A stretch of 64,000 nucleotides of DNA from a virus. This document shows, piece by piece, positions 16,443 to 17,669 of the stretch; the stretch's first letter is position 1, and each line of letters opens with the position of its first letter. Under the pieces are notes generated by a model. The model did no database searches. It saw nothing but the letters and a program-made list of their open reading frames with translations, and had not been told where the DNA came from. Both the position numbers and the translations under genes were made by a program. The stretch spans positions 62,001-126,000 of the IMG/VR virus record IMGVR_UViG_3300026078_000019; one strand, written 5' to 3'.

Positions 16443-16462
16443 GCAAACGAATAGCGACAGGA

Positions 16463-16483
16463 CCGGGGTGTAGCCTACCCCGG
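16463..16483. terminator. GC-rich hairpin after a structural gene
   Basis: CCGGGGT (16463-16469) pairs with ACCCCGG (16477-16483) across a 7-base loop, 20 bases after the stop at 16442, followed by TCTGTCTTCC. It may end the plus-strand transcript, or mark the 3' end of the minus-strand tRNA-region transcript. The T-run is weak. Confidence 0.45.
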
Positions 16484-16517
16484 CCCCATCTGTCTTCCGC
16501 CACTAGCTCATCGCACG

Positions 16518-16649
16518 GCAACACTGAGCGTCTTAGATCTGAGTACCAGCGTCTTACCGTTAGACCATCCCCCAATAGTTGATCGGCTACAACTGGGGGA
16601 CTCGGATTTGAACCGAGACTTCTGGTGGGTGATCGCTCAATCGGATTGC
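16518..16649 (-). tRNA. Circularly permuted tRNA-like gene 2 (Gln-like acceptor)
   Basis: On the minus strand the 3' half comes first: ACCAG (16626-16622), AAGT, a T-arm CTCGG-TTCAAAT-CCGAG (16617-16601), then TCCCCCA (16600-16594). After 19 bases the 5' half follows: TGGGGGA (16574-16568), TG, D-arm GTCT-AACGGTA-AGAC, G, then CTGGT. Acceptor (7/7), T-stem (5/5), D-stem (4/4) and anticodon stem CTGGT/ACCAG (5/5) all pair. U1-A72 and G73 are tRNA-Gln features. Sequences outside the anticodon stem also pair (CGCTCAGT with ATTGAGCG, GTTGC with GCAAT). The anticodon cannot be fixed. Confidence 0.6.
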
Positions 16650-16706
16650 GAGTTTTGCCTAGCGTCTCAGATTGTCCATTGGAGATCTGAGTTTTCAGGT
16701 TGACGT

Positions 16707-16797
16707 CGAGGAGTTGAAGACCTTGCCTCTGCCGTTGGGCTATCCCCCGGTAGATCGGGGGAGCTGGATTCGAACCAGCACTGTGGGGTCATCCTCG
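16707..16797 (-). tRNA. Circularly permuted tRNA-like gene 1 (Pro-like acceptor)
   Basis: On the minus strand, GACC (16790-16787) and CCACAGT lead into a T-arm GCTGG-TTCGAAT-CCAGC (16779-16763) and TCCCCCG (16762-16756). Six bases later comes CGGGGGA (16749-16743), TA, a D-arm with GCC/GGC stem and the AACGGCAGA loop, then AGGTC. Acceptor 7/7, T-stem 5/5 and anticodon stem 4 of 5 pair (GGTC/GACC). C1-G72 and A73 suit tRNA-Pro. Outer flanks TCCTCG (16712-16707) and CGAGGA (16797-16792) pair perfectly. The loop could read CGG or CAA depending on the joint. Confidence 0.6.
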
Positions 16798-16830
16798 TGA
16801 GGTTGAGATTGAGATTGATGGTCCGTGGGG

Positions 16831-16905
16831 CTCCTGGCCCCGAGAGGGCCGCCGATCCGTACTAGGGGGGCGTTTCCGGATCAGCGACCCACTCAGAGCC
16901 AGGAG
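16831..16905 (-). ncRNA. Long structured RNA hairpin beside the tRNA-like genes
   Basis: Read on the minus strand, CTCCTGGC (16905-16898) pairs with GCCAGGAG (16838-16831), then a 7/7 internal loop, then a 14-bp helix GGGTCGCTGATCCG with CGGATCGGCGGCCC including two G-U pairs, and a 17-base apical loop. On the plus strand those two pairs become C-A mismatches, so the RNA is made from the minus strand. It begins 24 bases after the stop of the minus gene ending at 16929. It may be a processed 3' end, a terminator-like structure or an independent RNA; there is no U-run. Confidence 0.5.
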
Positions 16906-16928
16906 CACGCAGCATGACGCGGACCGCG

Positions 16929-17669
16929 TCAGCGCGCGAGCAGGAAGTCGAAGAGCTGCTGGCCGATGCCGACCTCGTCGACCTCGACCAGGTTGGCGGT
17001 CTCGCGCGCCTGCTTCACCGCGCGCTGGAGCGTCTCCACCCTGGCGACGAGCGTTCGGCGACGATCCTCCGTGATCGCGGCGGAGAGCTTGGTCTTCTTC
17101 CACTCGCCGACCACGACGTCGCGGACCACGAGCTGCGTTTGTGCCGGGTGCTCCTTCGTCGCCTGCGAGAGGACGAGCGGCTCCTGCGACTTCTCGGTCT
17201 TGATCTGCGTGATCGGCTCCGTCACGTAGTAGCCGCGAGTCGAGTCGAACGTCCAGGCCTGGTCGGGGTCGAGCACCGGCAGCTTGGCGAAGAAGGTGTG
17301 CAGGTCCTGAAGCTGCTTCTCCAGGAACAGCAGGGTGGTCGGAGGAAGCTGCCCGAGGCTGACGCCGTTCGGCAGCACGACTTCGGCCGTGGTCTTGGTG
17401 TTGCCGACGTCCTTCGTCGCGGTGAGGTCGAACAGCGGGATCATCTTCGCCGCGGTGGTCAGCAGCTCGTCTTCGACCTTGAGCTGGATCAGGCGATTCT
17501 CGGGCGGGAACTGCCGGCCGGTCTCGTCCTTGGGCGTGTAGGTCGCGGTCTCGCCGGTGACGAGCGCGCCCTTCTGCATGAGGTGGTGATCCTTGGACAG
17601 GTTGCCGTACGCCGACTTCTTCACGTCGCGTTCGATCGCCAGGATCTGGTTCAGTCGCTTCTTCGCCAT
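16929..17669 (-). CDS. Protein resembling an actinobacterial family of unknown function
   Basis: 246 residues, full length, from ATG 17669. The series KKRLNQILAIERDVK, HHLMQKGALVTG, YTPKDETGRQFPPE, TTLLFLEKQLQDLHTFFAKLPVLDP and KEHPAQTQLVV matches, in order, a family of about 240 residues that I recall from Streptomyces genomes, where it has no assigned function. Mostly helical and soluble. It is the second gene behind the promoter at 18283 and is followed by a large structured RNA. Confidence 0.6.
   Translation of the reverse strand: MAKKRLNQILAIERDVKKSAYGNLSKDHHLMQKGALVTGETATYTPKDETGRQFPPENRLIQLKVEDELLTTAAKMIPLFDLTATKDVGNTKTTAEVVLPNGVSLGQLPPTTLLFLEKQLQDLHTFFAKLPVLDPDQAWTFDSTRGYYVTEPITQIKTEKSQEPLVLSQATKEHPAQTQLVVRDVVVGEWKKTKLSAAITEDRRRTLVARVETLQRAVKQARETANLVEVDEVGIGQQLFDFLLAR

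Follow-up and report, generated by a model that had tools for sequence, protein, structure and literature searches.

A tandem pair of circularly permuted tRNA-like units behind DUF7873 genes of phages and bacteria probably belongs to a Y-RNA-like ribonucleoprotein

Two tRNA-like units with circularly permuted halves lie in tandem on the minus strand of a 64,000-nt stretch of DNA (the window) of the 149,872-bp virus record IMGVR_UViG_3300026078_000019, behind a gene of the DUF7873 family. We consider it reasonably probable that both units are tRNA-mimic domains of one small non-coding RNA (ncRNA), which would be part of a ribonucleoprotein (RNP) resembling those built on Y RNAs. In the best reading of our comparisons, DUF7873 would stand in the place of the Ro protein as a putative RNA-binding component. 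An earlier note on this DNA had described the units and taken them for permuted pre-tRNAs; the observation was right, whereas the interpretation is not supported. The parts of the locus are the following.

16929–17669, minus strand: DUF7873 gene (Pfam PF25283, E = 1.1e-83), 246 aa; proposed RNA-binding partner, on the basis that the same family stands upstream of the RNA in nearly all examined phage and bacterial relatives.
16460–16928, minus strand: intergenic stretch with the putative ncRNA (two tRNA-like domains, flanks and 3' hairpin); the ends are approximate.
16798–16813, minus strand: YTNA hexamer repeat CTCAAT CTCAAC CTCA, upstream of unit 1.
16719–16790, minus strand: unit 1 (A), permuted tRNA-like core with a D-arm stem of 3 bp, from the sequence and from ARAGORN on the doubled sequence.
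16682–16698, minus strand: inter-unit spacer with YTNA motifs CTGAAAACTCAGATCTC, from the sequence; relatives have CTNAGATTATYGCTCYAGAYTNA at this place.
16512–16659, minus strand: unit 2 (B) with basal helices P0 and P1, anticodon-like stem, T-arm, acceptor and D-arm (4-bp stem).
16460–16487, minus strand: 3' hairpin GGGGCCGGGGTAGGCTACACCCCGGTCC, a possible RNA end, from folding; relatives have a hairpin with a YAGGCTAN loop.

In both units the 3' half precedes the 5' half, and every pairing named in the earlier note was found. Unit 1 contains a T-arm (16763–16779), the acceptor 3' strand TCCCCCG (16756–16762), a linker (16750–16755), the acceptor 5' strand CGGGGGA (16743–16749) and a D-arm (16725–16740), with GACC (16787–16790) pairing with GGTC (16719–16722). 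The corresponding parts of unit 2 are a T-arm (16601–16617), TCCCCCA (16594–16600), a linker (16575–16593), TGGGGGA (16568–16574) and a D-arm (16551–16565), with ACCAG (16622–16626) pairing with CTGGT (16545–16549). The coordinates agree with the linker lengths given earlier, 6 and 19 nt. Outside this core, unit 2 has the helices P0 (16651–16659 with 16517–16525, GGCAAAACT/AGTGTTGCC, 8 of 9 positions paired) and P1 (16634–16639 with 16525–16530, TGAGCG/CGCTCA), with GATC/GATC inside.

ARAGORN detected no normal-order tRNA in the window or in the whole record, and the outer halves have no partners, as the earlier note had stated. In a permutation-aware search, the program folded each doubled unit into a full cloverleaf. 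A strict detector of permuted cores matched these two places in the record and none other. The same detector produced 11 matches in total, or ~0.55 per record, in 20 first-order Markov surrogates, so that chance comes nowhere near explaining two units separated by 160 nt. The 7-bp acceptor pairing claimed within each unit holds; it is also present in 73 of 73 pairs across relatives by construction, since the detector demands this pairing within a unit, while pairing between units is not demanded.

The tandem units are closely associated with DUF7873. Blastn searches revealed the same unannotated permuted pair in Gordonia phages GodonK and Phendrix, Arthrobacter phages Racecar, Mimi and Talia1610, and Rhodococcus phage NiceHouse, and in these phages the upstream gene is DUF7873, as in the window. 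Tblastn with DUF7873 retrieved 63 phage records, and nine out of ten further records inspected, from Gordonia, cyanobacterial, Rhizobium, Vibrio and Klebsiella phages, carry one or two permuted units behind the gene. At least one unit is found within 1.5 kb downstream of the gene in 70 of 80 viral DUF7873 contigs (two units in 28), versus 11 detector matches in 1.72 Mb of viral control sequence. The proportion is the same at bacterial DUF7873 loci (70 of 80 with units, 39 with two), with 4 matches in 1.48 Mb of control. The bacterial family comprises at least 501 relatives in a genome scan, with carriers in Streptomyces, Nocardia, Lentzea, Kitasatospora, some Chloroflexi, some Planctomycetota, Armatimonadota and others, and no other conserved neighbour genes were found around the bacterial loci. 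The position and order of parts in the intergenic stretch of the window match those of the relatives. At two loci (L086, 7943–8086; L137, 2774–2953) unit B is on the strand opposite to DUF7873, unlike at nearly all others.

Co-occurrence across genomes was followed with R1, a covariance model of unit B and its flanks built without the window. DUF7873 is present in 37 of 61 Streptomycetaceae genomes. R1 reaches at least 70 bits in 35 of the 61, all of them carriers, with one match each, located ~145–300 bp downstream of DUF7873. The other two carriers have an R1 match beside the gene at 52.3 and 49.9 bits, and none of the 24 non-carriers has a match above 54 bits. In a phylum-wide sample of 101 genomes, the sole DUF7873 carrier is also the sole genome exceeding 51 bits. 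R1 further recovers unit B in most detector-negative loci. Unit 2 of the window is matched over the full length of the model (16654–16512) with 43.7 bits (E = 1e-8 in 391 kb), a score to be read against the ~50 bits of tandem tRNAs, and unit 1 with 34.8 bits. Since tandem tRNAs score at least as high with R1 as unit 2 of the window, and reach the 30s with the Rfam model of YrlA, neither score is proof by itself, and the membership of these units rests mostly on gene linkage and layout.

Those background R1 matches near 50 bits that were inspected proved to be tandem identical tRNA-Asn or tRNA-Arg genes. Examples are found at L200 283–434, L201 281–432 and L202 278–466 (Streptomyces genomes G215, G233 and G209, respectively), and the pair of tRNA-Asn genes in L200 also gives 36.9 bits when compared with the Rfam model of YrlA. 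Tandem identical tRNA genes are an important artefact and a trap for permuted-tRNA searches.

Comparison of the relatives points to a common architecture. Each domain comprises, by sequence, a tRNA core (acceptor, T-arm and D-arm), the acceptor end of which is closed by a short linker or hairpin. The 'anticodon' end opens into the flanks, which in unit B make up a basal stem consisting of P1, a conserved internal loop and P0. The sequences also show the RNA to be linked to DUF7873 in phages and bacteria alike, with A before B at nearly fixed spacing: in 62 of 74 tandem pairs the first unit is A, with a 3-bp D-stem, and the second B, with a 4-bp D-stem, and in 70 of the 74 the two are 84–107 nt apart. 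U8, which the detector did not impose, is present in all 117 units.

Compensatory changes, named earlier as a check on the outer helices, are pronounced in relatives, where both P0 and P1 covary strongly. An alignment-free, motif-anchored test of the unit B helices against cross-shuffles resulted in z = 11.0 for P1 and z = 7.7 for P0. When 26 B units were aligned, each of the 14 base pairs that make up P0 and P1 proved to have changed on both sides, with 91–92% paired, and the whole-structure score of unit B is 0.702, compared with 0.207 for shuffled and at most 0.197 for slid versions. The anticodon-like stem is less well preserved: its pairing is present in the window, as had been claimed, but in unit B of relatives it is kept poorly (45.7% of cells paired in the same alignment). 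Between P0 and P1, typical members have an asymmetric internal loop in which AUCRA stands opposite UUAAACG. The window copy is without this motif and is, therefore, a divergent member.

The flanks carry further signals. Triple YTNA with 6-nt spacing occurs at 1.73 per kb behind viral DUF7873 genes versus 0.036 per kb elsewhere, a ~48-fold difference; in the RNA, these YUNA repeats are located around unit A and in the spacer. Paired strands were considered and rejected for them: RNAalifold on 31 A units predicted no flank helix and single-sequence folds disagree. Recognition by a protein is preferred, since the repeats do not covary as helices, and the pattern suggests such recognition. Downstream of B, a hairpin with a YAGGCTAN loop is present in 9 of 102 B units versus 1 in 477 kb of control. 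Its bearers are distant members (the window, L071, L087, L023, L028, L159, L161, L169 and L174).

The closest known layout is that of YrlA (RF02553), the bacterial Y RNA of the RYPER complex with Ro/Rsr in Deinococcus and Salmonella. YrlA combines a large stem, in which the 5' and 3' ends pair, with a tRNA-like domain that has D, T and acceptor arms; the Ro-like Rsr sits on the stem, PNPase is bound by the tRNA-like domain, and DusA and TruB act on YrlA as a substrate (PMC8394870). Y RNAs of phages are also discussed in the literature (PMC12282133). The DUF7873-linked RNA shares with YrlA the permuted D, T and acceptor arms, the closed acceptor end and the basal stem (PMC8394870, PMC12282133), and the YrlA system likewise occurs in bacteria and phages with the gene of the partner protein adjacent. 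The window units have this layout of tRNA-like module, closed acceptor end and basal stem. The helices that the earlier note had seen outside the anticodon stem do exist and covary; what it had likened to the extended helix of permuted pre-tRNAs finds a better explanation in the basal stem of a Y-RNA-like molecule. The differences from YrlA are in the partner, DUF7873 instead of TROVE/Ro, in the flanks, which carry YUNA repeats and AUCRA/UUAAACG, and in the presence of two domains, which are set at a fixed distance and probably share a transcript. The Rfam scores are also far under the cut-off: YrlA matches unit 1 of the window with 22.7 bits (gathering threshold, 69 bits), has no match listed at E ≤ 1 on unit 2, and gives 23–38 bits on relatives. 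Filing the RNA under YrlA by score was rejected, as tandem tRNA-Asn genes score as high.

Similar cores are found beside Ro or Ro-like genes in Streptomyces phage BRock, Arthrobacter phage Atuin and Klebsiella phage phi1_175008, where the neighbour is a putative RNA-binding protein: Ro in the first two and a Ro-like DUF2828/DUF7788 protein in the last. These phage Y RNAs differ from the DUF7873-linked units in having Ro-type flank motifs (CGAUGC..ACUUC / CUUUUUCU). R1 matches BRock and Atuin in the core only, while one of the two phi1_175008 units is matched over its full length with 48.4 bits. In BRock (L015, 5940–6530) the Ro gene is preceded by a series of approximately four unannotated Ro-type Y RNA-like elements, of which two have a tRNA-like domain and two apparently lack one. 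In phi1_175008 (L115, 247–1677 and 1961–2213) the DUF2828/DUF7788 gene, encoding a distantly Ro-like vWA protein, is followed by two YrlA-like units; this is a third protein type beside such RNAs.

No TROVE (Ro/Rsr) domain was detected in the 149,872-bp record or in a near-identical contig of 172,310 bp, both of which may be fragments. TROVE also has no match in 45 of 48 DUF7873 phage records and in 20 of 50 DUF7873 bacteria. It is this pattern, together with the YrlA-like layout, that leads us to propose DUF7873 in the place of Ro. Both domains would be carried on one transcript, to which DUF7873 would bind at the basal stem and at the YUNA repeats, just as Ro binds bacterial Y RNA at its basal stem. 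A tRNA-recognising host protein might be held or recruited by the tRNA-like domains, by analogy with PNPase and the tRNA-modifying enzymes of YrlA, and the complex could be an RNA-tethered scaffold that serves RNA turnover or tRNA-related control. The phage would then bear its own copy of a module found in many bacterial chromosomes, and no cutting and ligating of the RNA would be needed.

The AlphaFold model of DUF7873 is a confident one, with a mean pLDDT of 92.3 and a pTM of 0.68. DUF7873 was considered as a relative of Ro and rejected, as it has no TROVE match, no solved fold at E ≤ 0.001 and no match in BFVD; a comparison with PDB sequences gave nothing below E = 0.1. Membership in a known defence, phage or otherwise named family was also rejected, with no match in PADLOC, NCBIfam or PHROGs, and we found no papers on DUF7873.

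Several observations weigh against a Y-RNA-like RNP. The model of DUF7873 matches no solved fold, and the protein has no pronounced basic character (pI 7.9 for the window copy, 5.8–6.7 in six bacterial members); the near-neutral pI neither helps nor excludes RNA binding, which, given these two points, is a guess from linkage. The UUAAACG internal-loop motif is absent from unit B of the window, and the R1 score of that unit is no higher than those of tandem identical tRNA genes. Exceptions to the linkage exist: no unit was found behind DUF7873 of a Microcoleus phage (L022) or at locus L116, and L099, L100 and L122 have weak matches only; L085 and L109 end too early for a downstream unit to be judged. 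Finally, 91 of 226 linkers have NCCA immediately behind the acceptor 3' strand, compared with 2% by chance, and a permanently closed loop does not explain this excess. Either the mimicry would include the CCA end, which might serve RNase P or CCA-binding enzymes, for instance, or some of the RNAs would undergo two-piece processing.

The latter possibility is the main rival, improbable though not negligible. The linkers would be cut (by RNase P at the acceptor 5' strand, with trimming back to CCA), and each domain would have a free CCA end available for charging or for EF-Tu, on the model of circularly permuted two-piece tmRNA. Besides the NCCA excess, the nucleotide right after the acceptor, which is C in only 1 of 226 linkers, speaks for it, and permuted tmRNA has been named as a precedent (PMC3978253). 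In two-piece tmRNA, too, the tRNA-like domain is split at the acceptor loop, as here, where some linkers carry NCCA; the differences are the ordinary D-arm and the two tRNA-like domains of the present RNA. Against this, 135 of the 226 linkers lack NCCA, including both linkers of the window, and many are loops of 4–8 nt or long enough for hairpins. Neither ARAGORN nor Rfam detected a tmRNA in the window.

It is less probable still that the RNA is an ordinary YrlA working with a Ro supplied by the host, with DUF7873 as a mere neighbour. YrlA is the best Rfam match on unit 1, the B units of relatives reach 32.9–38.2 bits, and 30 of the 50 bacteria with DUF7873 have TROVE as well. A score in the 30s is not diagnostic, however, since the tandem tRNA-Asn genes mentioned above reach 36.9 bits. 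TROVE has no match in the remaining bacteria and in most of the phage records, and the flank motifs differ between Ro-linked and DUF7873-linked units.

U33 is needed by any elongator tRNA and would fall in the 5' half here. It is present in 36 of 116 units; in the window, position 33 is U in unit 1 and C in unit 2. U33 is not conserved. We consider it very unlikely that the units are true permuted pre-tRNAs of the algal and archaeal kind, which are circularised and cut. The permuted order, the 7-bp acceptors, the D- and T-arms and U8 are all compatible with such genes, and those of algae and Thermofilum (Soma 2014, PMC3978253) also have the 3' half first, a short intervening sequence at the acceptor end and a helix continuing past the anticodon stem. 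By contrast, the present units have no U33 signature, and the tRNA-intron endonuclease (PF01974) is absent from 12 phage and bacterial genomes or records. RtcB and RNA_ligase have no match in the phage record, RNA_ligase being present in two relatives, in a search that did not cover host ligases. Conserved helices and motifs outside the tRNA part and the close tie to one protein family likewise speak against pre-tRNAs. The cutting and ligating route that the earlier note had considered necessary is unsupported.

Little probability also attaches to a decoy or antitoxin RNA that neutralises a tRNA-attacking enzyme, with DUF7873 as the enzyme or its carrier. tRNA cores without an anticodon loop, in a stand-alone two-part cassette of phages and bacteria that has no other conserved neighbours, would suit such a role, but DUF7873 has no PADLOC or NCBIfam match and no known enzyme fold, and the elaborate conserved flanks would be superfluous for a decoy. 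An artefact of normal tRNA genes (tandem duplicates, decayed tRNAs or an intron-bearing tRNA across the units) can be practically dismissed: identical tRNA-Asn or tRNA-Arg genes in tandem can pass for the permuted pattern, and ARAGORN, allowed an intron in normal order, returns a poor 'tRNA-Leu' with a C-A acceptor mismatch, yet the outer halves are unpartnered, the record has no tRNA, no complete normal-order tRNA overlapping the units has been found in relatives so far, and the A acceptor pairs with the B 3' strand over all 7 bp in 1 of 73 tandem pairs, a comparison on which intron-containing or tandem normal tRNAs were rejected. A self-splicing permuted intron–exon arrangement was also rejected, the inter-unit spacer of ~100 nt being too short for a group I intron.

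Returning to the Y-RNA-like RNP, we think it rather likely that DUF7873 and its twin tRNA-mimic RNA constitute an undescribed class of bacterial and phage RNPs, built like Ro–Y RNA complexes with an unrelated protein, and thus an independent solution for presenting a tRNA mimic on an RNA handle, with two domains on one RNA. No Rfam family or paper was found for the DUF7873-linked RNA, in a comparison that left some key Y RNA literature outside, nor were papers found on permuted tRNAs of phages or Streptomyces. To our knowledge, bacterial Y RNAs have so far been described together with a Ro partner. If the proposal is true, this would be a second family of tRNA-mimic RNAs tied to a dedicated protein, making RNA-tethered tRNA mimicry a general strategy, with a module present in more than half of the sampled Streptomycetaceae genomes and in phages of very different hosts. 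It would give DUF7873 its first testable function and warns that searches for permuted tRNAs in bacteria mostly find such mimics or tandem duplicate tRNAs. It would also explain why tRNA annotation has overlooked or misread these loci. In Klebsiella phage vB_KpM_FBKp24 (L025, 4766–4845) an annotated 'tRNA-Sup-TTA' overlaps the permuted unit behind DUF7873 and is probably a misreading of it. In Gordonia phage GodonK (L001, 525–1053) Rfam reports a tmRNA match of 90.3 bits where a short tRNA-His is annotated.
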